Assembly: GCA_021648285.1 (NCBI GenBank) | Contig: JAKITC010000008.1 | Span: 1-64,000 of the forward strand | Origin: Sulfurimonas sp. | Lineage (GTDB): Bacteria > Campylobacterota > Campylobacteria > Campylobacterales > Sulfurimonadaceae | DNA length: 64,000 nucleotides | Direction: 5' to 3' | Shown here: piece after piece, positions 48,719 to 64,000 of the stretch | Layout: each line of letters starts with the position of its first letter | How positions within the stretch are numbered: position 1 is the stretch's first letter | The notes under the pieces: model-generated | What the model was told of the DNA's origin: nothing | Databases searched by the model: none | Seen by the model: only the letters and a program-made list of their open reading frames with translations | Program-made: the position numbers and the translations under genes

Positions 48719-49807
48719 ATGAAAAAAATCGTATATGTACTGCTTATAACTTTACTTCTTTTTAGCTCTTCATCACTATTTGCTTTCTCCAAGGAAGTCA
48801 CTAATCCTACACTGGTTCAAGTCGGTAAACATAAACATTGGTGTCCCGTATGTGGCATGAGTCTAAAGAAATTCTATAAAACTTCACATGTATCAAAACA
48901 AAATAGCTCAACTCCCAAGCAATACTGCTCAATGAGATGTTTAGTTGTTGACATGTCGCAAAATAGTATTGATACCAAGAATATTCAAGTGGTTGATGTT
49001 GTAAGCCAAAAACTGATAGATGCCAAGAGTGCTATTTATGTAGTTGGTTCAGAGGTAAAAGGAACTATGTCAAAAGTTTCCAAGTTGGCTTTTTCTAGCG
49101 CTGAGGCAGCAGAAGACTTTAGTATTGAAAATGGTGGAGATATTGTAGTTTTTGACAAAGTGCTTCAGATGGCACAAGAGTCGATAAAGTCTGATATGGC
49201 AATGGTTACAAAGAAAAAAACAAAAAAAATATACCCAATGGGTAAAAAAATATTTGAAAAAATATGCGATAAAAAAATAGAACTTAAAAACTATAAACAA
49301 ATAAATCAACTAAAAGCAGCTATAAAAAATGAGAAGCTTTGTAAACCTATGAAAGAGAAACAACTTCAGGCACTCTCTCTCTACTTATTTGAAGTCAAAA
49401 GATTTGATAATTTAAAAAAAAATGATGCTATAATCCAAGTTACAAAAGATGATAAATGTCCAGTTTGCGGTATGTTCGTTTATAAATATCCAAAGTGGGT
49501 CGCACAAATTTTTTATAAAAATTCTCACTATTCGTTTGATGGTGTAAAAGATATGATGAAGTACTATTATGAACATAGGAAAGATATCTCTAAAATCTTA
49601 GTTATTGATTATTACTCACATGAGACTATAGATGCGCTAAAAGCTTACTTTGTAATTGGCAGTGATGTTTATGGTCCTATGGGAGATGAGATAGTACCTT
49701 TTAAAAGTAAGAGTGAAGCAAAAGTATTTAGCATGGATCACAAGGGTTTTAAAGTATTGAACTTTGATGAAATTAAAGAGCAGGAAGTATATAAACTAGA
49801 TGAATAA
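48719..49807 (+). CDS. Two-domain NosL protein with haem-less cytochrome-like centre
   Basis: 362 residues with a signal peptide (about 1-23). NosL domain 1 (about 35-155) has WCPVCGM (Cys42, Cys45, Met47) and a YCSMRC segment. NosL domain 2 (about 240-360) has KCPVCGM (Cys247, Cys250, Met252) followed by VYKYPKW. The CxxCxM sets are presumed Cu(I) ligands. Between them (about 172-228), PMGKKIFEKICDKK ... KEKQLQALSLYLFEVKR resembles a monohaem cytochrome c domain without CxxCH. It is the first gene of an operon with an ABC transporter. Periplasmic copper delivery for NosZ is the inferred role. Confidence 0.85.
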   Translation: MKKIVYVLLITLLLFSSSSLFAFSKEVTNPTLVQVGKHKHWCPVCGMSLKKFYKTSHVSKQNSSTPKQYCSMRCLVVDMSQNSIDTKNIQVVDVVSQKLIDAKSAIYVVGSEVKGTMSKVSKLAFSSAEAAEDFSIENGGDIVVFDKVLQMAQESIKSDMAMVTKKKTKKIYPMGKKIFEKICDKKIELKNYKQINQLKAAIKNEKLCKPMKEKQLQALSLYLFEVKRFDNLKKNDAIIQVTKDDKCPVCGMFVYKYPKWVAQIFYKNSHYSFDGVKDMMKYYYEHRKDISKILVIDYYSHETIDALKAYFVIGSDVYGPMGDEIVPFKSKSEAKVFSMDHKGFKVLNFDEIKEQEVYKLDE

Positions 49808-50102
49808 AAAGAGTAAAATTATTTTATATAGCTTTATGTCTCTTAGTGTACTTTTGTGTTTAGAGGCTTTTTATATTTATTCTACTAAAAGCGTGAGCAG
49901 TGACTCTTTAAGCTCAAAACTGGCATTTGTAGAGCTTGTAGGATTGCCGGATTTGGCAATCTCAACAGAAGCAACATATGTGAGACACAGAAGCATGAGT
50001 GATCTTTTTTCCATATACAAAGATGATGGAACTCTAAGAGAGTATTTTCCGTCAACATTTGTCTATGCACACTCTCACGCTATAAATAAAGAGGTACAAT
50101 GA
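49800..50102 (+). CDS. Small membrane-anchored protein of the NosL-ABC operon
   Basis: 100 residues. One N-terminal membrane helix (about 7-26) is followed by a periplasmic tail with AFVELVGLPDLAISTEATYVRHRSM-type sequence (here split: LPDLAISTEATYVRHRS) and FPSTFVYAHSHA, giving several His residues. I do not recognise the family. It overlaps the upstream NosL gene by 8 bases and the permease gene by 4, so it is produced with them. It may be a small adaptor or metal-binding partner; that is inference. Confidence 0.6.
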   Translation: MNKKSKIILYSFMSLSVLLCLEAFYIYSTKSVSSDSLSSKLAFVELVGLPDLAISTEATYVRHRSMSDLFSIYKDDGTLREYFPSTFVYAHSHAINKEVQ

Positions 50103-51262
50103 ATATTTATTTAGTTGAATATGCAATAAATTCACTACTTAGACAAAAGTATAAAACTATTTTTGTTACTGTTATTTTAACAACTCTTGTCTTTTTGCTT
50201 ACCTCCGTATTTTTTATAACAAACTCTATAAAGTATGAACTTCAAAGTACGGTAGATGCACTTCCAGAGATTGTAGTTCAAAAGATAAAAGCTGGACGTC
50301 ACTACGATTTGGATAGTGAGAGGGTTGATGATATTTTGGAAATAACAGGTGTGAACAGTGCGGTTGCAAGAGTGTGGGGGTATTACTATTTTGCAAATGT
50401 GGGAGTAAACTTCACTGTTGTCGGTATAGATGAGTATGAAGAGCAGTATAAAAACAGCCTAAATCTTATTGCCAAATCTTTGGATTTCAGTACTAACTCT
50501 ATGTTTGTCGGAGAGGGTGTTAAGAAGAGTATGAGTGAAAGCTACTATAAAGAGTATTTTAACTTTATAAAGCCAAATGGAACTCTAAAGAAAATGAATA
50601 TATCTGGAGTATTTGAGGGTGATACTCAGCTTGAATCAAATGATATGATAGTTATGAGTAAAGAAAATGCCAGAGATATCTTTGACATGTCACAATCACG
50701 GGCAACAGACATAGTTGTTAAAGTTGCCAATGTAGATGAAATCCATACAGTTGCTTCAAAGATAAGGCTAATATTTCCAGATAGCAGAGTAATAACCAAA
50801 GATGATCTAAAAATCAGTTATCAAAATATTTTTGATTATAAAAGTGGCATATTCTTAGCTCTTTTTGTAGTTTCACTCTTTACATTTTTCATAATTATTT
50901 ATGATAAAGCAAGCGGGTTGAGCAGCGAAGAAAAAAGAGAAATAGGCATACTTAAGGCTATCGGCTGGAGAGTTGATGATGTTTTAAAAGAGAAGTTTTA
51001 TGAAGGTTTTATTATTTCATTTTTTGCATATCTGCTTGGAGTGTTTTTATCACTTGGCTTTGTTTATATTTTAAAAGCACCGCTAATACAAAAGATATTT
51101 ACCGGTTATTCAGAGTTGAAAACTTCATTTGACCTCCCTTTTGTGTTTGATATACAGACATTGGCACTTGTCTTCTTTTTAAGCGTCCCCATATATATAG
51201 CTGCAACTATAATCCCCTCGTGGAGAAGTGCTACATTAGAGGCTGATGAGGTTATGAGATGA
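50099..51262 (+). CDS. MacB/LolC-type ABC transporter permease (FtsX domain)
   Basis: 387 residues. One N-terminal membrane helix, a large periplasmic domain (about 45-255), then three C-terminal helices of the FtsX domain (KREIGILKAIGWRVDDVLKEKFYEG is the coupling-helix region, read in two parts). Such type VII ABC permeases move substrates within or out of the periplasm by mechanotransmission, without crossing the inner membrane. Operon position between NosL proteins suggests copper, lipoprotein or NosL handling; substrate unproven. Confidence 0.85.
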   Translation: MNIYLVEYAINSLLRQKYKTIFVTVILTTLVFLLTSVFFITNSIKYELQSTVDALPEIVVQKIKAGRHYDLDSERVDDILEITGVNSAVARVWGYYYFANVGVNFTVVGIDEYEEQYKNSLNLIAKSLDFSTNSMFVGEGVKKSMSESYYKEYFNFIKPNGTLKKMNISGVFEGDTQLESNDMIVMSKENARDIFDMSQSRATDIVVKVANVDEIHTVASKIRLIFPDSRVITKDDLKISYQNIFDYKSGIFLALFVVSLFTFFIIIYDKASGLSSEEKREIGILKAIGWRVDDVLKEKFYEGFIISFFAYLLGVFLSLGFVYILKAPLIQKIFTGYSELKTSFDLPFVFDIQTLALVFFLSVPIYIAATIIPSWRSATLEADEVMR

Positions 51263-51927
51263 TAGAGTTAAAGAACATAATAAAAAGATATGAAATAAAT
51301 AAAAATAATACGGTCACAGCATTGAATGGCATAAATCTTACTGTAAAAGAGGGCGAACTTGTTGTTTTAAAAGGTGCAAGCGGAAGCGGTAAGAGTACTA
51401 TTCTCTCACTTATAGCAGCTCTTAGCAAACCTACAAGCGGAGAAGTTATTGTTGATGATAAAAGAGTTTCAAAGCTTCCTGACAATTTTGCATCAGATTT
51501 TAGACGAGATAATGTTGGCTTTATATTTCAAAAGTACAACTTGATAAACAGTCTCAGCGTTAAAGAAAACATAATCCTGCCCTTAGTGCCCATGAATCTA
51601 CATGTGAATATTGTAGAAGCTAAACTAAAAAGAGTTCTGAAGATGTTTCATATAGAAAATAAAGAGAATATTTTAGTTAAGAACCTCTCTGGCGGTGAAC
51701 AACAAAGAGTTGCTATTGCACGGGCAAATATTAATGAGCCTAAAATAATTTTGGCGGATGAACCTACAGCAAACCTTGATGAAAAACTCTCTATGAAGTT
51801 TATAGATATTTTAAAAGAGCTAAGGCAGCAGGGAAAAACAGTTATAGTAGCTACACATGATCCTCTGTTCTTTAACCTTGACATAGTAGATAAAGTGGTA
51901 GAAATACATCAAGGGCTTATCTCTTAA
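51259..51927 (+). CDS. ABC transporter ATP-binding protein, LolD/MacB-like
   Basis: 222 residues. Walker A GASGSGKST, Q-loop in FIFQKYNLI, signature LSGGEQQRVAIARA, Walker B IILADEPTANLD, and H-loop VIVATHDP. The closest subclass is the LolD/FtsE/MacB group, which pairs with FtsX-type permeases such as its neighbour (4-base overlap). It powers the transporter in the cytoplasm. Confidence 0.9.
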   Translation: MIELKNIIKRYEINKNNTVTALNGINLTVKEGELVVLKGASGSGKSTILSLIAALSKPTSGEVIVDDKRVSKLPDNFASDFRRDNVGFIFQKYNLINSLSVKENIILPLVPMNLHVNIVEAKLKRVLKMFHIENKENILVKNLSGGEQQRVAIARANINEPKIILADEPTANLDEKLSMKFIDILKELRQQGKTVIVATHDPLFFNLDIVDKVVEIHQGLIS

Positions 51928-52874
51928 TGCTACTGACTCCTGAAGTTTTAACTCTACTGATATTAAATATTATATTTGCATTTTTTGCAGTTGTAGCCTT
52001 TGTTCTAAGTGTTAGGATATACCTTAATTGGGATATTAACTCCACAAGTAAAAAACAATATCAGCTAGAAAAGCAGAGTTTTTTAAGCGCTACAATCATC
52101 AAGTATATATTTGCTATAAAAGTCCCACTGTTTCTATTTTTTATTTTTACTCTCGATAAGGTTTCAAATGTCTTAACCGGTGCCATGTGTGGGGCAGGAG
52201 TTATTGATGCAACAGAGACAGGAACATACCTTATTATCTTAAAGATAATTAACCTTTATCTGTTCGCATACTGGCTAAAACTAAACAGTGAAGATATGAA
52301 AGAGGAGAATCAGCCATATACAAGATTCAAATTTGGAATGTTTACAGTACTATTTTTCTTTTTTATAATTGAAATAGTCTTAGAGGGAGTTATGTTCAAT
52401 GCCATAGAGATAGATAAGATGGTTAGTTGTTGTGGAAGTATATACTCTAGCTCTGCCACTTCGGCAATTTCAAATATTTTTGCTTTGGACAACAGAACAC
52501 TTTTAGCTATGTTTTATGGAAATTATCTATTAATTGTCCTATTTTATTTTTTTAAAAATCGCTATCTCTTTGCACTCTCAAATTTGATTTTTATAGTTGT
52601 GGCTCTTATAAGCTTGATTGCATTTTTTGGTGGATATATTTATGAACTTCCATCACATCACTGCCCATTCTGTTTTTTACAGAGTGATTATTATTATATT
52701 GGCTATTTAATATATTTAATGCTTTTTTTGGGGACATTTTATGGTTTAATTGTTGCATTTATCAAAAAATCACAAGAAAGTTATAACATATCAATGTTTT
52801 TCAACTCTATTTATGTTATATTGCTAACATTAATTACGATAATATACTATTTCAAAAATGGTGTTTGGCTTTGA
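51927..52874 (+). CDS. Polytopic membrane protein with cysteine motifs
   Basis: 315 residues with about eight membrane helices. Cysteines are grouped as AMCGAG near residue 90, MVSCCGS near 165, and HHCPFCFLQ near 250. The last is a CxxC flanked by histidines at a membrane edge. These could bind copper or haem or take part in thiol redox. No family recognised. It starts on the last base of the ATPase gene. It is probably the membrane partner of the operon's NosL proteins. Confidence 0.65.
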   Translation: MLLTPEVLTLLILNIIFAFFAVVAFVLSVRIYLNWDINSTSKKQYQLEKQSFLSATIIKYIFAIKVPLFLFFIFTLDKVSNVLTGAMCGAGVIDATETGTYLIILKIINLYLFAYWLKLNSEDMKEENQPYTRFKFGMFTVLFFFFIIEIVLEGVMFNAIEIDKMVSCCGSIYSSSATSAISNIFALDNRTLLAMFYGNYLLIVLFYFFKNRYLFALSNLIFIVVALISLIAFFGGYIYELPSHHCPFCFLQSDYYYIGYLIYLMLFLGTFYGLIVAFIKKSQESYNISMFFNSIYVILLTLITIIYYFKNGVWL

Positions 52875-52887
52875 ATAAAGGAGTTTA

Positions 52888-53319
52888 ATGATACACTTTA
52901 GATATGTACTGTTGCTATCTTGTGTTATAATGTTCTTAGGTTGTCAAAAAAAAGTTGAACAGGGTATATCAGAAATACACTGGGATAGAGACATGTGTGA
53001 CAGATGTGTTATGGTGATAAGTGACAGAAAGCACACTGTGCAGCTTAAAGATCCAGCTACCAAAAAAGTGTATAAGTTTGATGATATCGGCTGTATGGCA
53101 ATTTGGTTTATGGATGAACAGATAGCATTTAAAGAGAGTGTTGCTATTTGGGTTACTGATGCCCAAACCGGAGAGTGGTGTGATGCCAGAAAAGCATTTT
53201 ATACAACGGGAAATCTTACGCCTATGGCATATGGATTTAGTGCATATAAAGCAAAAGGATCTATTGAAAATGCTCAAGAAATTATTAGTTACGATGAGGT
53301 TTTAAAAAGAATAAGATGA
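52888..53319 (+). CDS. nosL: NosL-family copper-binding lipoprotein
   Basis: 143 residues. Lipobox FLGC (Cys19). Metal motif MCDRCVM (Cys37, Cys40, Met42) and conserved YKFDDIGCMAIWF (Cys69), as in the other NosL lipoprotein of this window. NosL is known to bind Cu(I) and help assemble the CuZ centre of NosZ. It overlaps the regulator gene by 4 bases. Confidence 0.88.
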   Translation: MIHFRYVLLLSCVIMFLGCQKKVEQGISEIHWDRDMCDRCVMVISDRKHTVQLKDPATKKVYKFDDIGCMAIWFMDEQIAFKESVAIWVTDAQTGEWCDARKAFYTTGNLTPMAYGFSAYKAKGSIENAQEIISYDEVLKRIR

Positions 53320-53948
53320 AAACGCGCCTTAAAAGTACAGTACTTTTCAAAAATGTAGATGAAGAGATAATTAAAAAAATAGAAAATTTTACAACAGAGC
53401 ATCATATCTCTAAAGATAATATAGTATTTTATGAAGGTGATGAACCAAAACACTTATATCTTTTAGTAAAAGGCGTTATCAAGCTCTACAAGACATCATC
53501 CAGCCATAAAGAGATAGTCCTAAAATATTTTCATGATAATGAACTTATCGGTGAAGTTGCAAATTTTGAAGAGATACCATATCCTGCAACAGCAAAAGCA
53601 TATAGCGATGTAGAAGTTTTAAAAATAGATTTTCAAAAGCTAAAAGAGATTATTGTTACGAACCCAGATATGGCATTTAACATTCAGACATCATTGATAA
53701 AAAAGATTAAAAATTTAGAAAATATCATATCAACAAATTTAGTTTTAGATTCACGAGAGAGAGTGGCAAAGTATATTCACAATCATGCAGATGCTTTTTT
53801 TGAGACAAAAAATATAGAGATCGCTGAGATACTTGGCGTTTCACCAGAAACATTGTCTAGAATTTTGAAATTTTTTAAAGATCACAACATAATCAATGTA
53901 AAAACAAAGTTTATAGATAAAGAAGCATTAGTTGAATTTTTTGAGTAA
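53316..53948 (+). CDS. Crp/Fnr-family regulator without cysteines
   Basis: 210 residues. Cyclic-nucleotide-binding-like barrel (FYEGDEPKHLYLLVKGVIKLYKT), a long dimerisation helix, and winged helix-turn-helix (IAEILGVSPETLSRILKFFKDHNII). The recognition helix E..SR is as in FNR, suggesting TTGAT half-sites. There is no cysteine at all, so it does not carry a 4Fe-4S cluster. An NO-responsive or haem-type regulator of denitrification genes is the likely role. It is encoded in the NosL-ABC operon. Confidence 0.87.
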   Translation: MKTRLKSTVLFKNVDEEIIKKIENFTTEHHISKDNIVFYEGDEPKHLYLLVKGVIKLYKTSSSHKEIVLKYFHDNELIGEVANFEEIPYPATAKAYSDVEVLKIDFQKLKEIIVTNPDMAFNIQTSLIKKIKNLENIISTNLVLDSRERVAKYIHNHADAFFETKNIEIAEILGVSPETLSRILKFFKDHNIINVKTKFIDKEALVEFFE

Positions 53949-54028: not shown

Positions 54029-55153
54029 ATGCACAAAATATTTTTATTTCTACTTACAATACTGCTAGTAAATTTACTACAGGCAAACGAAGGTAAAGTT
54101 TGTCAAAAGTGTCACCCAATCATATACTCAGAATATTACGAGTCTTCTCACAGAAATGCTTCTATATATAATAACCCTATTCATAAAGCTATGTGGGATA
54201 AGCATCCCAAGGATGAAAAGGGATATACATGTGCAAAGTGTCACTCTCCAAGTGACCTAGAGTCGTTACAAACGGGTAAACTTACAAAAAACAAGACACA
54301 GGTCGAAGAAGCCATATCTTGTATCTATTGCCACACTATTAAAGATGTTGAAGAAGGTGACAGCTCAAATACAAATATAAGTAGCAATAAAAAAAGAGAA
54401 TTTTTTACGGCTCAAAAAGGTAAAAAAGGTAAAGCTGAGTATAAAACTGTTTCATCTTGGTTTGGGCTAGTTAAAGAGTCTAGTAGTTCACCTTATCATA
54501 AAATAGACTATGATAATGAAAACTACTACAGTGGAAATGTGTGTATGGGTTGTCACTCACATACAAACAATGAACACAGTTTTGATATTTCAATGCTTGA
54601 TGCTGTTATAAGTGAAAAAGATGAAAACACATGTGTGACATGTCATATGCCACAAGTTCTTGGAACTAAAGTAACAATAAATAAAACTAAAACTCATGCT
54701 TACCATGGTATAGCCGGAATCTATCACAAGCGTGAAATGATGGGCAAGCATATAGATTTTAAAGTCTCAAATTCAGATAACGGTTTTAATGTTAAAGTTG
54801 TTAATAAATCTAATCATGCTCTTTTTGGACAAGCATTTAGACAAGGAATACTAAAAGTCAAGATAATAAGAGGTTCTAAGACAATTGAGCTTAAGCCTTT
54901 TATATTTGAAAGAGTACTTGCAAAAGATGGGCAAGAAGTTATGCCATGGGATGCAAACCAAGCACTTAAAGACACACTTATCTATGCTAAGAGAGATATC
55001 TCTTTTGATACATCTATAGAGCAGGGGGATAGGTTAGTGCTTACTTTAGGAGTTCAAAGAATTTCTAAAGACGGAGCAAAGAAGCTTGGTATTGAAGATA
55101 ATAAAGAGCTAACAAAATTTAGAGTTTTAAAGACAGAGAAGTTAAGTTTTTAA
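54029..55153 (+). CDS. Pentahaem c-type cytochrome
   Basis: 374 residues with a signal peptide (about 1-20). Five CxxCH motifs occur at residues 25-29, 68-72, 98-102, 172-176 and 202-206 (CQKCH, CAKCH, CIYCH, CMGCH, CVTCH). A C-terminal beta-rich domain (about 230-374) carries no haem. The layout resembles cytochrome c554/NrfA-related multihaem proteins rather than a known reductase. It has its own GGAGAG ribosome site 80 bases after the regulator gene. It could bring electrons to NosZ or to a nitrogen-oxide enzyme. Confidence 0.82.
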   Translation: MHKIFLFLLTILLVNLLQANEGKVCQKCHPIIYSEYYESSHRNASIYNNPIHKAMWDKHPKDEKGYTCAKCHSPSDLESLQTGKLTKNKTQVEEAISCIYCHTIKDVEEGDSSNTNISSNKKREFFTAQKGKKGKAEYKTVSSWFGLVKESSSSPYHKIDYDNENYYSGNVCMGCHSHTNNEHSFDISMLDAVISEKDENTCVTCHMPQVLGTKVTINKTKTHAYHGIAGIYHKREMMGKHIDFKVSNSDNGFNVKVVNKSNHALFGQAFRQGILKVKIIRGSKTIELKPFIFERVLAKDGQEVMPWDANQALKDTLIYAKRDISFDTSIEQGDRLVLTLGVQRISKDGAKKLGIEDNKELTKFRVLKTEKLSF

Positions 55154-55167
55154 CTTCTAAAGTAGTC

Positions 55168-55638
55168 TTATATTCTCCCGTTTAAAAGTCTAATAAGACT
55201 GTTTTTAACCTCTTTGAAGTTTAAAATTCTTCTTCCCCTGTATTTTGCAGCAAACTGCTTTGCATCTTCGTAGCTGGCAAATGGAACTAAATCATCTCCA
55301 GCCGGTGATGTTATTTGACTGCCATAAACATAAAATGCTCCCTTGGCTTCTATAGGTTTTAAATTTTTGAAATCAGTAACAAGTATATCCTTAAAATCAG
55401 CTTCACTTTTTACGCCGATATCGAACCATTTTCCGGGTCTGTGATAAAATTCTAGCATAGATTTTGGGCTGACAAAAAATAGTTTTTTACCATTTGTAAG
55501 CTCTATTTTTGATACCCATTTTGGATATTTATATACTTTCATATTTCTAACTACACCATTTGTGCTTTTATCATAATCTATCGTATATGAAAACAGAAGA
55601 GCCGATGTTAAAACAGTTCCAATTAGAATTTTTCTCAT
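55168..55638 (-). CDS. Cysteine-free NosL-like protein
   Basis: 156 residues with a signal peptide (about 1-18). It clearly matches the second NosL domain of the protein at 48719 (shared VYKYPKWV, YGSQ/IGSD, GDDLVPF, ILNFKEV). However, the CxxCxM metal site is missing and the whole protein has no cysteine. It therefore cannot bind copper as NosL does and may be a structural partner or interaction module. Last gene of the nos operon, 11 bases after nosY. Confidence 0.75.
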   Translation of the reverse strand: MRKILIGTVLTSALLFSYTIDYDKSTNGVVRNMKVYKYPKWVSKIELTNGKKLFFVSPKSMLEFYHRPGKWFDIGVKSEADFKDILVTDFKNLKPIEAKGAFYVYGSQITSPAGDDLVPFASYEDAKQFAAKYRGRRILNFKEVKNSLIRLLNGRI

Positions 55639-55649
55639 AATTATTTCCT

Positions 55650-56477
55650 TTAAACTAAATCTTTTTTCTTAAAAACAACAAAACCTAAAGTTGCAAAAAC
55701 AAGCCCTAAAATTACGGGATACCCGATAGAAAGAAAAACAAACATTTTTTGACTCATAGTGTCCAAGATGTAATATGCAACCGGTCCCATAACCGTTAAC
55801 TCAGGGTCAAATAGCGATATTGCCGCAACGCGAAAAATCTCCATAGGATTCATCATAGAGATAGTGATTATAAGCTCTGTAGAGAAGCGCTCCTGCATCA
55901 TAAGTGATATAAGTGCGATATCTATAAATGCCAGTAAAAATATCCATATGAAAAAGGCGATTCCAAGAGCGACTTCACTTGATTTAACAAATGATGATAT
56001 AAAAAATGCTATTCCTAAAAATGCAGAGGAGAGTGCAAAAAGAAGTCCTGTGTATAGAAAAAATATACTCCAAGGTATTTCTGCACCCTTGAATGCTCCA
56101 TATATAATTGCAATAATCATTGCAAAAAGTACAGGAAGATAAACTGTGATAAATCGTCCAATAATTTTGCCCCAGTAATATTGTTTTAGTGAGATTGGGA
56201 ATGAAAGCATATACTCTAAGATATGGTTATCTCTATCGCCTGAGATTGAGCGTACAGTTGTTATAAGTATAAAGATAGGTAAGATAACTATTGTAATCTG
56301 TATATACATAAGTAAAAGACGGCTTAAACCGCTAAATCCCATCACTTGTGACTCTGTCACACCCGCTATGAAAAACAGAGCAATTAGCCCGCCAAAAACC
56401 AAAGAGTAAACTAAAAACCATTTAGCTCTTATAGACTCTTTCAAGTCTAAATATGCGATTAAAGATAGGTTTTTCAC
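55650..56477 (-). CDS. nosY: NosY, ABC permease for NosZ maturation
   Basis: 275 residues with about six membrane helices. Typical NosY features are a cytoplasmic amphipathic start (SLIAYLDLKESIRAKWF), FSGLSRLLLMYIQ and SGDRDNHILEYMLSFPISLKQYYWGK. With NosF and NosD it forms the ABC complex for CuZ assembly. It overlaps nosL by 4 bases. Confidence 0.88.
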   Translation of the reverse strand: MKNLSLIAYLDLKESIRAKWFLVYSLVFGGLIALFFIAGVTESQVMGFSGLSRLLLMYIQITIVILPIFILITTVRSISGDRDNHILEYMLSFPISLKQYYWGKIIGRFITVYLPVLFAMIIAIIYGAFKGAEIPWSIFFLYTGLLFALSSAFLGIAFFISSFVKSSEVALGIAFFIWIFLLAFIDIALISLMMQERFSTELIITISMMNPMEIFRVAAISLFDPELTVMGPVAYYILDTMSQKMFVFLSIGYPVILGLVFATLGFVVFKKKDLV

Positions 56478-56920
56478 ACTTTGCTCCCTAAGATTAGTTT
56501 TCTGATTTTTGGATTTGCCATATGCTCACCCCTTAACATGTTGATAATTACTTTATCAAAATTAATTGCATCAGGTTGCTCTTTTTCGTAAGCACTGAAA
56601 CCATAGCCCATAGGTGTGTTTTCATATGTTGTGTAGTACGCTTTAGATGAGTTTATATATCTTTTTGTATCATTTGTAAATACTTTAGATTCAATCTGAT
56701 TTAAGTCGAGTTGATTCTTTTTGGCAAATAGAATCATACAACCGATATCATCAAAATAATGAATAGAATTTTTGGCATCTAAAGAGGCAGTATGCAGTTT
56801 TGAGTCATTTATATGCATATTGCAAGTTGAACAAATATCACTGAGTATTTTTGGCGAACTACATCCAAAAAAAGTCAGTAATGAAGTAAAAATCAAAACT
56901 GAAAGTTTAAACCCTTTCAT
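56474..56920 (-). CDS. nosL: NosL copper chaperone lipoprotein
   Basis: 148 residues. Lipobox FFGC (Cys20), metal motif ICSTCNM (Cys30, Cys33, Met35) and HYFDDIGCMILF (Cys61). It would pass Cu(I) to the NosDFY complex in the periplasm. It sits between nosF (14-base overlap) and nosY (4-base overlap), whereas in Wolinella nosL follows nosY (from memory). Confidence 0.88.
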   Translation of the reverse strand: MKGFKLSVLIFTSLLTFFGCSSPKILSDICSTCNMHINDSKLHTASLDAKNSIHYFDDIGCMILFAKKNQLDLNQIESKVFTNDTKRYINSSKAYYTTYENTPMGYGFSAYEKEQPDAINFDKVIINMLRGEHMANPKIRKLILGSKV

Positions 56921-57545
56921 CTGACGTCACCTTTCCTAAGTCCATATATATTTGTCTATTAACCAACTCTTTTACCTCTTCAAGTCTATGCGTTACAAAA
57001 AGGAGTACTTTCTCATCTTCGTTTTGTTTTAAAAGTCTGTAAAAATCATCTCTGGCATTAGGATCAAGATTTGCAGTTGGCTCATCATAAATGATAATAT
57101 TACTTTTTTTAGCCAGACTTATAGCTATGAGCAGTTTTTGCTTCATCCCGCCACTTAGTTTAAAAAATGACTTATTAAGATTTTCTTTTATATTGAGTTT
57201 CATCTCATTCGCATAGTGTAAAATAAGCGCTCTTTCCACATCAGAGCTAGTAACTACATAGCTTATCAACTCCTCTATGTTAAGCTTAATCGGAGGGGGG
57301 AGTTGAGGAACAAAGCTAATATCTTTTAAAACCCTGACTCTATCTGTTATTGGACTATAACCATTGATAAGTACTTTACCCTCATCAGGATGGTAATAGC
57401 CCAGAATGGAGCGAATAAGAGTAGTTTTACCTGCACCATTTGCACCCATTATTGCAATTGAATCATTTTTATTAAATTCACAAGTTACACTGTCTAGTGA
57501 TATAGACGAGCCGAATTTCTTAGTTAAATTATCTATTTTTATCAT
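56907..57545 (-). CDS. nosF: NosF, ABC ATPase for NosZ maturation
   Basis: 212 residues. Walker A IMGANGAGKTT, Q-loop FVPQLPPPI, signature LSGGMKQKL, Walker B IIYDEPTANLD and H-loop FVTHRLEEV. It drives the NosDFY complex in the cytoplasm. It is shorter than typical NosF (about 300 residues) but intact. It starts 2 bases after nosH. Confidence 0.9.
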   Translation of the reverse strand: MIKIDNLTKKFGSSISLDSVTCEFNKNDSIAIMGANGAGKTTLIRSILGYYHPDEGKVLINGYSPITDRVRVLKDISFVPQLPPPIKLNIEELISYVVTSSDVERALILHYANEMKLNIKENLNKSFFKLSGGMKQKLLIAISLAKKSNIIIYDEPTANLDPNARDDFYRLLKQNEDEKVLLFVTHRLEEVKELVNRQIYMDLGKVTSDERV

Positions 57546-57547
57546 AT

Positions 57548-58453
57548 TTACACCAAGTTCTTTAATCTAAAATCAAAACTTAATGCATCAGTGTGGCATA
57601 CATCAATACATCTTCCGCATAGAGTACAATCTGCTCCGGTAATATATTTTCTTGTTATACCTTTTTCTATTCTCTGCTCATCATATTTTGCTTTTGTTAT
57701 CTCTAATACTTGATTTTCAAAACATACATCATGACACACCATACAGTGGTCACAGTTATCATTCCATTCAATCTTAAGTGTAGAAACTTTTCCAATGTAT
57801 CCATAAGTAGTTCCAATTGGACAGATATACGTACACCAAGCTCTGCGAGAGTAAAAAACTTCAAAGGCAAAGACAATTACAACCCACACAATCGCTAAAC
57901 TCCATCCATAAGTTATCATTCTGCTAAGTATTCCAACTACATTAAAAGTCTCAAAAACCAAGTAGCCGCTTGTAAAAGATAGAATTAAAAATATACCCCA
58001 AAATATATGTCTAATTCTATGGTCAAACTTCCGCTCTTTAATGATTTTTTTTTCTACAAGAATGCTGTTGAGTTTTTCACCTATTTCACTTAGTAGACCA
58101 TAAGGACATACCCAGGAACAGTAGCTTCTCCCACCAACCAACATGTAAAAAATTAAAATAGTCACTGTACCGATTATTACATTTATAGGAAGCTCAAATG
58201 TAGCTAAATATAGCTGCATTGAAGTATAAATATCAATCAAATGAAAACCTAAAAAGCGTGATCCGCTAAGAGTTCCTTCAAGTACTTGAATATCAATAGC
58301 AAATGAGAGAAAAAACAGCAAATGAATTGAGATTACTAAAATCCATCTCTTCATTCTATAGCTGAAATATGTTTTTCCTTCTTTTGTTTTATCAAAAAAT
58401 GTTGAGAAAAAACTTGAAAACTTTAAGGTCTCTCTATTGTTAAACTTATCCAT
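57548..58453 (-). CDS. nosH: NosH, NapH-like membrane iron-sulfur protein
   Basis: 301 residues with four to five membrane helices. Two membrane CxxxCP motifs (CSWVCPYG, CTYICPIG) are followed by two ferredoxin-type 4Fe-4S sites near the C-terminus (CDHCMVCHDVC and CTLCGRCIDVC). It probably accepts electrons from menaquinol and passes them to NosG and the Nos cytochromes. Confidence 0.88.
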   Translation of the reverse strand: MDKFNNRETLKFSSFFSTFFDKTKEGKTYFSYRMKRWILVISIHLLFFLSFAIDIQVLEGTLSGSRFLGFHLIDIYTSMQLYLATFELPINVIIGTVTILIFYMLVGGRSYCSWVCPYGLLSEIGEKLNSILVEKKIIKERKFDHRIRHIFWGIFLILSFTSGYLVFETFNVVGILSRMITYGWSLAIVWVVIVFAFEVFYSRRAWCTYICPIGTTYGYIGKVSTLKIEWNDNCDHCMVCHDVCFENQVLEITKAKYDEQRIEKGITRKYITGADCTLCGRCIDVCHTDALSFDFRLKNLV

Positions 58454-58462
58454 TTAATTTCA

Positions 58463-58939
58463 CTATTTTGAACCTTTATTTTGTGAAGAAAAAGATCCTA
58501 TTTCATCGGCAAATTTTCGTAATTCTTTTTCATCAGTATTGATTAGAAGGCCTTTCATGATAACATTCTCTTTTCTTCCGTCTTTAAAGTCGATCAAATT
58601 TTTGTATAATTTATCAGCACTCTGCCCATAAAGTTTAGGTCCCATAAGTTTTCTACCATCTTGCATCCCTGAGCCGTCTGCTCCATGACATGCAGCACAC
58701 TTGCTTTTATATGCCTTACTTACTTCAACCGCACCTACGTTTCCAGCCTTATTCCTCAGAGCGGTCAACTCATCTTGTTCTTCATCTTCCATTGACTCTT
58801 TTTTTGTTACTGGAGTCTTATCTATATCTTTTATTACTTTTCCAAGTTCACCACCATGATAAGCTCCGCCTTTTGAGGCTGTTAGTACCATAAGTGCAAT
58901 AATAATTATAGTTAATATTGCAACTATAATGTTCTTCAT
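58463..58939 (-). CDS. nosC2: NosC2, monohaem cytochrome c
   Basis: 158 residues. N-terminal membrane anchor or signal segment (about 1-22), then a cytochrome c domain with CAACHGADGSG and GPKLYGQSADKLY; a distal Met lies in NVIMKGLLI. Similar to the preceding NosC1. The two are thought to carry electrons to NosZ in Epsilonproteobacteria. Overlaps nosC1 by one base. Confidence 0.88.
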   Translation of the reverse strand: MKNIIVAILTIIIIALMVLTASKGGAYHGGELGKVIKDIDKTPVTKKESMEDEEQDELTALRNKAGNVGAVEVSKAYKSKCAACHGADGSGMQDGRKLMGPKLYGQSADKLYKNLIDFKDGRKENVIMKGLLINTDEKELRKFADEIGSFSSQNKGSK

Positions 58940-59544
58940 TATTTATTCCTTAAGTCATTTATCTCTTGATTGAAGCGGTTAATCTCATCAGCCATCTCTC
59001 TAATCTCTTTATTATCCATCATCGTTACTAAATCAGTCATAAGAACATTTGCTTTTGGATCAGTTTTAAACTTTTTAATTTTATCAAATATATAATCAGA
59101 ACTCCTGTTAAGTAGTGATGGTCCAATAATTCCATTTGCGTAATCATTGTGACATGCAGAACATTTGACAATAAATTTTTTACTAAGATCTTTTACAAGC
59201 AGGGAAATCTGAATTTTTTCATATGGACTTCTTACATGCAAATTTGCATCTATTTCTGTTCTTGGCCTTGTACGAATAGAAGCATCTTTGTTTGCAGGTG
59301 TTGCATTTGAGCTATATGCACTTTTTATATCGTAGTCAAGGTAATATTGTCTGTCTTCTTTGTCATGTTCTTTTTCTTCAACTTTTATCTCTGAAGCATT
59401 TTTATTTTGTGAGATTTCAATACCTGAAGCAGTAGCAATTTTTGCTTCTGATGTGCTTTTGTTATTTTTATTTTCATCACTGCTACAACCTGTTAAGAGT
59501 ACAATAAGTAAAATTATTGTTAATCTTTTATTATTAAATTTCAT
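58939..59544 (-). CDS. nosC1: NosC1, monohaem cytochrome c lipoprotein
   Basis: 201 residues. Lipobox LLTGCSSDE, then a long Lys/Glu-rich linker and a C-terminal cytochrome c domain with KCSACHNDYANGIIGPSLL and NVLMTDLVTMMDN. The tail REMADEINRF is shared with NosC2 (KFADEIGSF). Electron carrier of the nos system. Confidence 0.87.
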   Translation of the reverse strand: MKFNNKRLTIILLIVLLTGCSSDENKNNKSTSEAKIATASGIEISQNKNASEIKVEEKEHDKEDRQYYLDYDIKSAYSSNATPANKDASIRTRPRTEIDANLHVRSPYEKIQISLLVKDLSKKFIVKCSACHNDYANGIIGPSLLNRSSDYIFDKIKKFKTDPKANVLMTDLVTMMDNKEIREMADEINRFNQEINDLRNK

Positions 59545-59552
59545 ATAAGTTC

Positions 59553-60290
59553 CTAAGCTTTATTATAATATTCATCGTAAGTTATTCTTGGTTTAACTAC
59601 AATAGATGGAATGGAAGTAGGGCAAACTTCTTGACAAACTCCACAACCTATGCAGCCATCATAAATTTCCGGTTTACTGCCACCACCGGCATCACTAACC
59701 ATTGATATAGCATCCATCGGATTTTCGATTGGGCACATGTCAGCACAAAGTGTACACTGTTTACCCTCATACTCATCCAGTTTTTTAAGAAGATCTGTTT
59801 CTAATTTTGTAACATTTCGTACAGAGTTAGTAAAGTTACTCATTTTATCATTATATCCCTTTGGTAAAGGAGTGTTACTCATAGCTATACATGTGTCAGG
59901 AAACTCTAATACAGCTATTCCCATATGTATATCTTGAGGTTTTTCACAGTGGTGATTAAGTGCTCCACTGGGACATGCTAGAACACAAGGAACAGCACTA
60001 CATGCATAACATCCACGTTCGTTTGCGTCTATATAAGGTGTTCCAAGCCCAGCCCTTTTTGCAATATCTGAGAGTTTAATAGAGTTGTAAGGACACACTT
60101 GAAGGCATTGACCGCACTTTATGCATAGGGATAAAAATTTTTTCTCATCGACCGCACCAGGAGGTCTTAGTCTATTCTCTTTGGCGGCTAAATATGGGCT
60201 AAAAAATATTCCTCCGCCAAGAGCAAGTCCTAACATTCCAAGCGTAGAATATTTAACAAATTCTCTTCTATCTGTTTGTATTTTTGCCAT
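59553..60290 (-). CDS. nosG: NosG, NapG-like periplasmic ferredoxin
   Basis: 245 residues. The N-terminus DRREFVKYSTLGMLGLALGG is a twin-arginine-type signal. Four cysteine clusters follow: CIKCGQCLQVCP, CYACSAVPCVLACP, CTLCADMCP and CIGCGVCQEVCP, consistent with four 4Fe-4S centres. With NosH it forms a menaquinol dehydrogenase-like unit supplying NosZ. It begins 2 bases after nosD. Confidence 0.9.
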   Translation of the reverse strand: MAKIQTDRREFVKYSTLGMLGLALGGGIFFSPYLAAKENRLRPPGAVDEKKFLSLCIKCGQCLQVCPYNSIKLSDIAKRAGLGTPYIDANERGCYACSAVPCVLACPSGALNHHCEKPQDIHMGIAVLEFPDTCIAMSNTPLPKGYNDKMSNFTNSVRNVTKLETDLLKKLDEYEGKQCTLCADMCPIENPMDAISMVSDAGGGSKPEIYDGCIGCGVCQEVCPTSIPSIVVKPRITYDEYYNKA

Positions 60291-60292
60291 AA

Positions 60293-61510
60293 TTAACCTT
60301 CAACTCTGACTTTTGGTTTTTTGTCTTCAAGTAAAAATAGTGGACTTGTGAATGGAGCCAGTTTTGCTAAAAAGTTTAACATTGAAATAACCGGAGAACC
60401 ATAAAAGAATTTTACATCAGGATTGTAAATCCAGAGTTGGTCTGCATATTGATATACTTTGTGTGGAGTATCACCAATATTATCGCCATCTCTATCAAAT
60501 CCTTCATAATTATCCCAGTAATTTCCTACAATCTCATTTTCATTTGTCTTGGATCCTCTAGAGTCATTAACCACATCTTCAATATTTCCCATTATGGTAT
60601 TATTTTTAATAATGTTGTTCTCACTCATAGAGTGAAAGTGTAGAGCTACTGCATTATATAAAATTTTATTTCCTGTTATCCAGTTTCTTGTGCCTGGTTC
60701 TAGAGGGGACCTATCTATATACAGACCTTGTGCACAGTAAATAATAGTGTTGTCTTTTAGAATAAAGTTTGAGACATCCTTAAGTCCTATTCCCATTCCT
60801 GTAGCACCGAGTGAACTTTGAATGGTATTCCCGACAGCAATCGTATCCTTAGAGTACATGAAAAATATTCCAACACTGTTAAATTTATAGTGATTGTTTT
60901 TTACCACATTTTTACCGGCATACATAAAATGCAGAGAGTATCTGCAGTGCTCAGCTGAATTACCAATAATTTCATTTCCATGTGAGTACCAGACAATCAT
61001 GTCACGAGATTTTACAAGTGAATTGCCTTTGATGATGTTGTCATGAGAGTACCAAAGTCTAAGTCCGTCACCGCGTAAACCTAAAGATAAATCTTTTGAA
61101 GAGATTTTATTGTTAACTACAATAGAATTTCTCATCATTTTCATATCAATTCCAAATAGACAGTCTTCAATAATGCAGTCTCTAATTTCGCATTGGGAAC
61201 CATTCTCCATTGAGATAGCAGCATCAAGTTTTTCGTGTCTATCTCCACTACCTATAATTTTTAAATTTTTAAGAGTTATAAAAGAGCCATTTGTGGTTAT
61301 AACAGTACCACTCTCTTCTCCGTCTATAATAACACCATCTTCTTTGCCAACTATAGTTAGCGGTTTATCTATAATTATATTGCCCTTGTATACTCCGGCA
61401 GGTAGTTTCAGTATGGAACCGCTAGGTGCTCTATCTATTGCATCCTGGAGTATATCTGCATTCAGCAGAGTTAAAAAAGCTATATGACACAGTAATATAA
61501 TTCTAAGCAT
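60293..61510 (-). CDS. nosD: NosD, periplasmic beta-helix maturation factor
   Basis: 405 residues. Signal peptide (about 1-18), then many right-handed parallel beta-helix (CASH) repeats with N-x-I-x-G-N patterns such as NSIVVNNKIS and NVVKNNHYKFNSVG. A hydrophobic C-terminal part (LNFLAKLAPFTSPLFLL) may touch the membrane. It works with NosF and NosY in CuZ assembly of NosZ. Confidence 0.92.
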   Translation of the reverse strand: MLRIILLCHIAFLTLLNADILQDAIDRAPSGSILKLPAGVYKGNIIIDKPLTIVGKEDGVIIDGEESGTVITTNGSFITLKNLKIIGSGDRHEKLDAAISMENGSQCEIRDCIIEDCLFGIDMKMMRNSIVVNNKISSKDLSLGLRGDGLRLWYSHDNIIKGNSLVKSRDMIVWYSHGNEIIGNSAEHCRYSLHFMYAGKNVVKNNHYKFNSVGIFFMYSKDTIAVGNTIQSSLGATGMGIGLKDVSNFILKDNTIIYCAQGLYIDRSPLEPGTRNWITGNKILYNAVALHFHSMSENNIIKNNTIMGNIEDVVNDSRGSKTNENEIVGNYWDNYEGFDRDGDNIGDTPHKVYQYADQLWIYNPDVKFFYGSPVISMLNFLAKLAPFTSPLFLLEDKKPKVRVEG

Positions 61511-61513
61511 ATT

Positions 61514-62296
61514 TTATTGATTCATCTCTCTGTGAGCTTTTTCTTTAGCGAAAAACGCCAGTAAGCTTAACAGACCAATAGCAATTAATATATAAAAGCC
61601 AATTGTAGGATATGAGTGTGTTGTAAATTGAGCAATCTTTCCATCCCCAAATACTGTTGGCATAAACGGTTTGATTGTAAATGCTCCCCAGTTATGAAGA
61701 TTATGCCCAAACCAGTATAACCAGTATGAATAATCTGCTATAAAGAGCAGTGGAAGAGCAGCTGGTATAAGCATTAAATAATTCAAAAACCTGGCGTTGT
61801 AAGCTATAAAGTATATCATTCCAAGAGATAGTGTTAAAAGTGCATATATGCCTATCTCACGCTCAATTTTTCCGCCAACCCACATAGGGTCCATTCCAAC
61901 GTAGTGATTTATTATATTCATCTCATGAACCTCGCCGCTGAAGCCGTCAAAATGAAAGAATACGGGAATCCCTTCAGGAAAGGCTTCTTTTGGATAGTTT
62001 GGTGCTTCGAGTGAAACCGACCATATTGGAAGTGAAGCTACACCTATCTCAGCGCCATTTTCTATCATTTTATCTAAATTGTTATGAGCATTTGTATCAG
62101 TAGATCGGCTTTTGTATCTACCTTGGTTATATAAATTCCAAGTAGTTTTATTTAAGGTTGATATCTCTTTTTCTTCTCCATCATGAATCTTATTGAGCGT
62201 TGAATGAAATGTTAACATTGGGAATGTAAAAGAGATTGTTAATATAAAGAGAGCTAAAGTAGCAAAGATTCTTGCTTTAATAATACTCGGATGCAT
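61514..62296 (-). CDS. nosB: NosB-like membrane protein
   Basis: 260 residues. One N-terminal membrane helix, a periplasmic loop with NKIHDGEEKE and GVASLPIWSVSLEAPNYP, then four further helices. Position right after nosZ and before nosD matches nosB of Wolinella-type clusters. Its role is not known. An AAGGGA ribosome site precedes the ATG; an AT-rich gap with possible promoter elements separates it from nosZ. Confidence 0.8.
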   Translation of the reverse strand: MHPSIIKARIFATLALFILTISFTFPMLTFHSTLNKIHDGEEKEISTLNKTTWNLYNQGRYKSRSTDTNAHNNLDKMIENGAEIGVASLPIWSVSLEAPNYPKEAFPEGIPVFFHFDGFSGEVHEMNIINHYVGMDPMWVGGKIEREIGIYALLTLSLGMIYFIAYNARFLNYLMLIPAALPLLFIADYSYWLYWFGHNLHNWGAFTIKPFMPTVFGDGKIAQFTTHSYPTIGFYILIAIGLLSLLAFFAKEKAHREMNQ

Positions 62297-62406
62297 GGTC
62301 TTCCCTTAGATAATTATAATTTATATTTATTATAATAATATAATAATATAATAAAGCTTTAATAATCTTGATATTTAGTAAATCTATATTAATTGTATAG
62401 AATAAA
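62297..62406. promoter_or_regulatory. AT-rich spacer upstream of nosB with possible promoter and Fnr half-site
   Basis: The gap is made mainly of A/T with TAATAA-type repeats and several TATAAT-like boxes on both strands. TTGATATTTAGTAA at 62368-62381 matches a Crp/Fnr box at 8 of 10 positions with one perfect half. It could allow separate expression of the nosB-onward genes. Confidence 0.3.
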
Positions 62407-62434
62407 TATGCAAAGGGAGTTCACCCTCTGCATA
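62407..62434 (-). terminator. Hairpin 19 bases after nosZ
   Basis: On the minus strand TATGCAGAGGG and CCCTTTGCATA form an 11-bp stem (one G-U pair) around a 6-base loop. It has a TATTTATT stretch after it rather than a long T run. It may partly stop transcription, or protect the nosZ end so that nosZ is made in excess over nosB-onward. Confidence 0.6.
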
Positions 62435-62452
62435 AGTTAGAAGTTTCTGTTT

Positions 62453-64000
62453 TTAGAACAAGTGAGCATTCTCATCAATCCATTTAAGATATTCGATGAT
62501 GTCTTTAACTTCTTGTTCACTCATATGCTGGTTAGGCATTTTAAGTTTGAAATAATCAATCATACCTTTCACATAAGCATCTTCATACTTAGATTCTGGA
62601 TTCATAATGAATTTTTTAACCCATTTTTCTGGGTCTACATGTCTTTGTAAAACACCAGTTAAGTCTGGACCAGATGAAACCTTACCAATGACATGGCAAC
62701 CGCTACATCCACCTTCACCAAATGCTGTTTGACCAGCTGTCGCGGCGTCAGACTGTTTTGTTGCAATAATTTTTACTAATGTATCTTTAGCTCTAATACC
62801 AACATCCGCTGTTTTAACCAATAGTTGCCAAATCATATTTTCATAAAGGATTGCTTTTTCAATGTCACCTTTATCATGCGCTGCATTTGCTTTTTTCTTC
62901 TGTGCCGGGATTTGACCATATTGATCAAATGCATCAGTTACAAGATTAGCTACAAAATTATGTTTATCAAAATCATTCGCTTTTAAGAATTTAACAACAC
63001 TTTGAATTACAGCATCTGTAGCAGCATTAACAGCAACAGTTTTTTTATACTCTGCTTCTAATTCAGTTTTAGACATTGTTTTCATTTTAAGTTTTTTAGC
63101 ACCAACATATTTTTTATTAGGGTCTTTAACCATAAGATAACCCATCATCTCTAAGTGAAGAGCAGAACAAAATTCTGTACAGTAATAAGGGAAAACACCT
63201 TCCAAATCTGCTTTGAACTTGATTGTTGAAGTCTCTCCCGGTTCTAGTGAAGTGTGAACATTATAGTCGTCAACAGTAAAACCGTGAGTCTCATCTTGAG
63301 CACGTTCAAGGTTTGTCATGTAGATTGTTACTTCATCACCTTTGTTTACTGTGATTCTCTCCGGATTGATGTGAGAACGAACTAATGTTGCATAAACAGT
63401 AACTTTATTACCTTTGCGCTCAATTCTCTCTTGTCCAGCTAAAGTTTTACCCTTGTGTATTTTACCAGTTCTAGTGTTTGTACCCATTTTGTACCTTACA
63501 ATCGGGTGCAATTTACTAGCTCTGATTGCAACAGCTTGATGAGGCTCACCAAGAGGTATAGGCATATCAACAAGTAAATCCATAGTCTTACCGCTAATAT
63601 CAATTAACTGATGATTTTGCGGGTGTAGAGGACCAACAGGTTGGAATCTATCTATTGTTAACTTATTTAAAGCAATGATATACTTACCTTGAGGATCAGC
63701 AGATTTTCCTTCCATTCCACATAAGTGACCGATGTTATAGTGAACATTTTCTTTATCAATAACTTTAAGAGTTTTGTAGTTCCATTTAACAACTTGAGAG
63801 TCAACATACAAAGAAGTATAGATCTCACCGTTTTTCCAATCTTTACCATATTGATTATGTAATGGCCCAAGACCCAGTTCAGCTTGCCCGTGTAAAGATT
63901 TTTTCATATCTAAGATAGGAATACCATATGGATCTTTCCCTACATATTCTTTATTATCAATTAGTTTTTTAATTTTACTCCATTTAAAAACAGATGCATG
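62453..64000 (-). CDS. nosZ: Nitrous-oxide reductase with C-terminal cytochrome c domain (partial)
   Basis: Partial: the frame is open to the right edge, so the N-terminal part including the signal and many CuZ histidines lies outside. It is not a start at 63907. Visible are the end of the seven-bladed propeller (GLGPLHNQYGKDW, DPQGKYIIALNK, GEPHQAV) and a cupredoxin CuA domain with FPYYCTEFCSALHLEMMGY. A C-terminal monohaem domain carries CSGCH (at 62693-62707), the form found in epsilonproteobacterial clade II NosZ. It reduces N2O to N2 in the periplasm. Confidence 0.95.
   Translation of the reverse strand, partial: HASVFKWSKIKKLIDNKEYVGKDPYGIPILDMKKSLHGQAELGLGPLHNQYGKDWKNGEIYTSLYVDSQVVKWNYKTLKVIDKENVHYNIGHLCGMEGKSADPQGKYIIALNKLTIDRFQPVGPLHPQNHQLIDISGKTMDLLVDMPIPLGEPHQAVAIRASKLHPIVRYKMGTNTRTGKIHKGKTLAGQERIERKGNKVTVYATLVRSHINPERITVNKGDEVTIYMTNLERAQDETHGFTVDDYNVHTSLEPGETSTIKFKADLEGVFPYYCTEFCSALHLEMMGYLMVKDPNKKYVGAKKLKMKTMSKTELEAEYKKTVAVNAATDAVIQSVVKFLKANDFDKHNFVANLVTDAFDQYGQIPAQKKKANAAHDKGDIEKAILYENMIWQLLVKTADVGIRAKDTLVKIIATKQSDAATAGQTAFGEGGCSGCHVIGKVSSGPDLTGVLQRHVDPEKWVKKFIMNPESKYEDAYVKGMIDYFKLKMPNQHMSEQEVKDIIEYLKWIDENAHLF

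Follow-up and report, generated by a model that had tools for sequence, protein, structure and literature searches.

A candidate NosL-coupled type VII ABC module for periplasmic copper handling in Campylobacterota

Copper delivery to NosZ decides the bacterial destruction of the greenhouse gas N2O, and the copper chaperone NosL is a Cu(I) lipoprotein. The NosDFY-NosL system connects an ABC ATPase and permease with NosL on the periplasmic side, where a copper enzyme is the client, and in these respects it resembles the module reported here, which encodes two members of the NosL family. A second group of related systems are the type VII ABC complexes, such as LolCDE, MacB, FtsEX, YbbAP and HrtBA. 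Known members of this type convey ATP-driven motion to the periplasm; to our knowledge, a copper chaperone has not been described as the partner on which any of them acts.

Two further described loci are relevant. The mcc operon of the Wolinella type encodes MccA, which is presented as a heme c-copper enzyme in the work of Hermann et al. (2015), as cited in PMC7558416. The nos cluster of Sulfurospirillum cavolei carries a five-gene insertion between nosL and nosY, comprising a hypothetical gene, an ABC permease, an ABC ATPase and two more hypothetical genes; its function was left unexplained, and the paper draws no link to MccA or to other genera (PMC4794192).

The locus described here lies in the window, i.e. 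the whole stretch of 64,000 nucleotides that was analysed, from contig JAKITC010000008.1 of a Sulfurimonas sp. genome that is about 90% complete. Its features are as follows:

48719..49807, plus strand: A, two-domain NosL (NosL2), 362 aa, with a Sec signal; two Pfam NosL domains and profile matches to PDB NosL entries
49800..50102, plus strand: B, 100 aa, one N-terminal membrane helix; no family match, kept between A and C in relatives
50099..51262, plus strand: C, predicted type VII (LolE/MacB/FtsX-fold) ABC permease, 387 aa; FtsX Pfam match, AF2 model and Foldseek
51259..51927, plus strand: D, LolD/MacB/FtsE-type ATPase, 222 aa; ABC_tran match at 2.8e-35
51927..52874, plus strand: E, 315 aa, 8 predicted membrane helices; invariant Cys, His and Met residues, no known family
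52888..53319, plus strand: F, NosL-type lipoprotein, 143 aa; NosL match at 2e-5, just over the cut-off
53316..53948, plus strand: G, CRP/FNR-family regulator
54029-55153: multiheme c554-like cytochrome, directly after regulator G
55168..64000, minus strand: clade II nos cluster with NosL (I), nosY, NosL (J), nosF, nosH, nosC2, nosC1, nosG, nosD, nosB and nosZ, the last extending beyond the window end

A preliminary description of this DNA had read genes A to F as a tightly packed operon, and this arrangement is real, with coordinates, overlaps (A/B 8 bases, B/C 4, C/D 4, D/E 1) and the 13-base gap between E and F all as claimed. The gene identities that it had assigned were likewise confirmed, namely NosL for A and F, an FtsX-type permease for C, an ABC ATPase for D and a polytopic cysteine protein for E. 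Since F and G overlap by 4 bases, the operon extends past F into the CRP/FNR regulator; about ten related copies of the module likewise have this regulator behind them. A scan for FNR boxes returned 72 sites against 68 expected, which is no informative excess. The nos cluster lies divergently downstream, has a complete NosDFY and includes two further NosL-type genes (I and J); with NosDFY complete on the other strand, the proposal of a second, separate NosL-linked ABC machine holds. In several Sulfurimonas genomes, the c554-like cytochrome moves together with the module.

We assign a probability of roughly 0.58 to the reading that these genes make up a NosL-coupled type VII ABC machine with a copper-handling role in the periplasm, serving several enzymes. 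The gene order, the fold of C, the invariant residues of E and the linkage to NosL, MccA and nos are computed results; copper as the cargo, the direction in which it is passed on, the part played by E and the mechanism of coupling are inferred.

The conservation of the module was followed in 328 Campylobacterota genomes, among which 121 carry E, 100 carry NosZ and 77 carry both. The order A-B-C-D-E is kept in 23 relatives as far as their contigs reach, whereas the presence of F, of the regulator and of the nos cluster varies. Among 120 neighbourhoods, 117 have a recognisable C and 119 a recognisable E, C-D-E stand together in about 117, spread over 28 genera, and a NosL gene lies within 6.5 kb in 102; genes of the NosL lipoprotein type near E number 81, from 20 genera. 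The conserved order in relatives and the joint occurrence of C-D-E in 28 genera indicate that the arrangement is not due to chance, and the neighbourhood counts define the unit as NosL, C-D-E and a small one-helix protein before C. In the window this protein is B, whereas other small proteins occupy its place in distant copies.

At the genome level, the partner of the module is NosL, which is present in all 121 genomes with E. Among the 228 NosZ-negative genomes, NosL occurs in 44/44 with E versus 4/184 without it (Fisher p=8e-43; as all linkage statistics given here, this value comes from one phylum and is inflated by shared descent). NosL in Campylobacterota thus exists almost only alongside NosZ or the E-bearing module. 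NosD tracks NosZ, being found in 98 of the 100 NosZ genomes and in 0/228 NosZ-negative ones; neither the module itself nor any of the 44 genomes with E and without NosZ has a NosD gene, which sets the module apart from NosDFY systems. It differs from these also in its permease, which is of the LolE/MacB type and not a NosY, in E, which has no counterpart in NosDFY, and in its occurrence with MccA and without NosZ. The window has NosDFY besides.

The two NosL proteins of the operon are of different build. A contains two NosL domains (Pfam PF05573, E=3e-54, 183 bits, over the cut-off), and its profile matches the PDB NosL entries 7osf, 7og7 and 2hpu. The domains are joined by a linker of about 70 residues (window 49202-49426), in which the alignment reveals two invariant cysteines (183 and 208); a heme-less cytochrome c was considered for this linker from a resemblance by eye and, with no Pfam support, is not claimed. 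F matches NosL weakly, at 25.4 bits against a PF05573 cut-off of 24. Read by eye, F has a lipobox and A has a Sec signal without one, so that the lipoprotein would be F (and J) and not A. The small protein B gave no Pfam or NCBIfam family match and contains the conserved segment LPDLAISTEAxYVRHRSLSDLFSIYKDD.

C matches the FtsX Pfam family at 3.4e-12 and, weakly, MacB_PCD. It has four membrane helices, a periplasmic domain at about residues 56-235 between helices 1 and 2, and an FtsX C-terminal domain. Its AF2 model (pLDDT 80, pTM 0.72) retrieved LolE (4e-16) and MacB (3e-13) with Foldseek, with a Z of 23 to LolE; LolC, HrtB and FtsX are also among the structural matches, of which LolE and LolC are the best. 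As judged from this model, C is a type VII ABC permease: it has the permease architecture of this group, and D provides the separate ATPase of the LolD/FtsE/MacB type. D matches the profile models of FtsE (7e-59), LolD (1.5e-55) and MacB (3e-52), while staying under the cut-offs of the FtsE, LolD, DevA and MacB models, and its closest PDB entries are MJ0796 and MacB. The module therefore shares with type VII systems the fold of C, the class of the ATPase and the layout of four helices plus a periplasmic domain, and differs from them in having NosL partners and E.

This likeness raises the question of whether the module could be a LolCDE-like exporter devoted to NosL, which would pull the lipoproteins F and J from the inner membrane towards the outer membrane or the periplasm. 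Such an exporter would agree with LolE and LolC as the best structural matches of C, with the match of C to the LolCE model TIGR02212 (1.9e-13) and with the NosL lipoprotein that follows E in most copies. We nevertheless regard it as unlikely, since C reaches only 50 bits of the 362-bit LolCE cut-off and is thereby not assigned to LolCDE. C was rejected as the canonical LolC because a much better LolC-type candidate is encoded elsewhere in the genome (244 bits, likewise under 362). In addition, MacB, HrtB and FtsX have the same fold as C, the module contains no LolA gene, A has no lipobox, some copies have no adjoining NosL lipoprotein, and the invariant Cys/His set of E would be left unexplained.

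A copper-handling machine for several enzymes, as we prefer to read the module, agrees with its occurrence in mcc operons. E is present in 50/50 genomes with MccA, at a distance of at most 20 kb in 49 of them; in the 50th, MccA lies at a contig end. These operons, that of L060 among others, have the order MccA, MccB (FKBP), MccC (4Fe-4S), MccD (NrfD), a CcsA-type cytochrome c synthase, a Sel1 protein, A, C, D, E and NosL, which places the synthase two genes upstream of A. MccA of the L060 type matches the Wolinella protein (PDB 4rkm) over its full length and has the CX15CH heme motif. In the E tree, the mcc copies form one clade of single origin, and it is this clade of the module that makes up the tail of the Wolinella-type operon. 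The window copy belongs to a different clade and its genome is without MccA, so that it does not qualify as an mcc accessory. NosD was found in 0/12 genomes that have MccA and no NosZ, which makes the module the only NosL-linked ABC system found there.

A second, MccA-like octaheme group (L183-L192; G038, G175, G215 and others) is about 50% identical to MccA and has CX17CH instead of CX15CH. Both non-heme cysteines are retained in five aligned members, and the genes adjoin a rhodanese-plus-six-heme protein or a CcsBA-type gene. The group occurs in 39 genomes, 32 of which are without E, indicating that an MccA-type protein by itself does not require the module.

E is the component for which no known family was found in Pfam, NCBIfam or PDB sequences. 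Comparison of its model, which is of medium confidence (pLDDT 73), with PDB folds gave generic helix-bundle matches only, and a plasmid search with E gave no match. Seven residues (M87, C88, C168, C169, H244, C246, C249), including an HxCPxC motif, are invariant in 117/117 divergent members, two very divergent or fragmentary rows having been excluded from the alignment. They are distributed over the three loops that follow helices 2, 4 and 6, all on one side of the membrane; these loops are poor in Lys/Arg compared with those after helices 3 and 7, and that side is therefore predicted to be periplasmic. A Cys5-His-Met set of this kind would be appropriate for binding Cu(I) or for thiol chemistry.

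The thiol chemistry could also be the main function. In a redox or heme-maturation module, E would be a quinone-linked thiol oxidoreductase with a DsbB-like CPxC loop that keeps the thiols of NosL or of cytochromes reduced, and C-D would drive E or export heme or thiol, comparable to HrtBA and CydDC. The invariant HxCPxC, the CcsA-type synthase of mcc operons, a DsbD_2-type membrane protein that lies directly downstream of the module in 6 genera and the structural match of C to HrtB all point in this direction. It appears rather improbable to us all the same, because E matches neither a Pfam family nor a structure, the module is partnered across genomes by the copper chaperone NosL, and a cytochrome synthase gene is missing from the vicinity of most non-mcc copies.

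The preliminary description had instead proposed a second machine dedicated to the maturation of NosZ, and it had named in advance a common occurrence of the ABC pair and the 315-aa protein in genomes without nosZ as a finding that would refute the proposal. The window does have the module beside nos. Of 49 non-mcc copies from NosZ genomes, 16 are at most 20 kb away from nosZ; they come from 8/19 genera, against about 1.1 expected at random. In several genera the module is even part of the nos operon, f10g27 genomes having B-C-D-E there, a layout that, judged by gene order, appears to be that of the S. cavolei insertion as well (PMC4794192). Thus, the earlier statement that no description of these genes was known is nearly right: no function had been assigned, yet the genes were apparently already drawn for S. 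cavolei. The co-occurrence of E with NosZ has an odds ratio of 14, which falls to 4 once the mcc copies are removed. NosZ is lacking from 44/121 E genomes and E from 23/100 NosZ genomes; with the mcc copies set aside, the module remains in 46 NosZ-positive and 40 NosZ-negative genomes, and 54/100 NosZ genomes are without such a copy. In Sulfurimonas, the module is often found at one locus downstream of htpX-prmC, regardless of whether nosZ is present. This distribution is the one that the description had named as refuting; it is not that of a factor occurring only with nosZ, so the tie to NosZ was not sustained and a dedicated NosZ machine is very unlikely. The nos label changes 15 times on the E tree and is hardly clustered, a pattern expected from repeated recruitment. 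Repeated placement at nos together with a distribution not tied to NosZ means that the association with nos is genuine without being exclusive or necessary.

Two pairs of module copies from f10g27 genomes (L122/L123 and L125/L126) are identical or nearly so. One copy of each pair lies within nos and the other at a different place in that genome, which points to a recent duplication or to gene conversion.

The recurrence of the module beside two unrelated copper enzymes, NosZ and the heme-copper sulfite reductase MccA, suggests a general supply of copper outside the inner membrane that is not dedicated to N2O reduction. Of the copper role that had first been attributed to the operon, copper as the common thread is likely to stand, whereas NosZ as its sole beneficiary is contradicted by the NosZ-free genomes and the mcc clade. 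In this copper-handling machine, C and D would form a LolCDE/MacB-like complex, in which ATP hydrolysis in the cytosol moves the periplasmic domain of C; metal would not have to cross the membrane. A, F and other NosL proteins would carry Cu(I), and E would display its Cys/His/Met cluster at the periplasmic face in order to take up, hold or pass on Cu(I), possibly also maintaining thiols or copper in the reduced state. The motion of C could then load or unload NosL and thereby bring copper to client enzymes, which would be MccA if the module is part of an mcc operon, NosZ if it is associated with nos, and others elsewhere.

More tentatively, and with less than even confidence, we speculate that this represents a new class of copper-insertion machine, parallel to NosDFY, in which the mechanical work of a type VII ABC complex would transfer Cu(I) from NosL into unrelated periplasmic copper enzymes such as NosZ, MccA and others, by way of the periplasmic Cys5-His-Met site of E, which would be a new polytopic membrane copper protein. 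The preferred copper-handling reading draws on the dependence of the module on NosL, also among NosZ-negative genomes, the linkage to MccA, the nos adjacency, the seven invariant residues of E, the LolE/MacB fold of C and the DsbD_2 and ExbB-ExbD-TonB partners. Counted against it are 32 E genomes that have neither NosZ nor MccA, the module-free NosZ genomes, the mostly E-free CX17CH group and the medium confidence of the E model. A MacAB-type copper efflux or detoxification pump with NosL as periplasmic scavenger would fit the MacB-like fold of C, but it is the least probable of the readings, given that MacA-type adaptor and TolC genes are absent from the module, that the module sits in operons of copper-requiring respiratory enzymes and that the ExbBD-TonB partner suggests uptake instead.

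If true, a shared NosL-coupled ABC module would provide part of the answer to how both NosZ and MccA are supplied with copper. It would also extend type VII ABC systems to a role in metal cofactors and assign a function to E, an invariant-cysteine membrane protein without a family. The E genomes without NosZ or MccA would in this case point to further, as yet undetected copper enzymes as clients.

Some neighbouring genes deserve mention in their own right. In one family (L134, L135, L136, L137), a two-component system, ExbB, ExbD and TonB are encoded upstream of A. No TonB receptor was seen in these operons; in three of the four TonB proteins, the N-terminal helix is followed by a Cys-rich stretch, e.g. 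CSCKKCACKNCKMH. Although few in number, the DsbD_2 and ExbB-ExbD-TonB neighbours would be in line with the uptake of copper or the handling of thiols. The genome of the window has two more NosL-type genes elsewhere, L004 (G000:C52:6691-7005) and L005, one of which encodes a lipoprotein and has genes for a thioredoxin-like and a phosphate-permease-like protein as neighbours.
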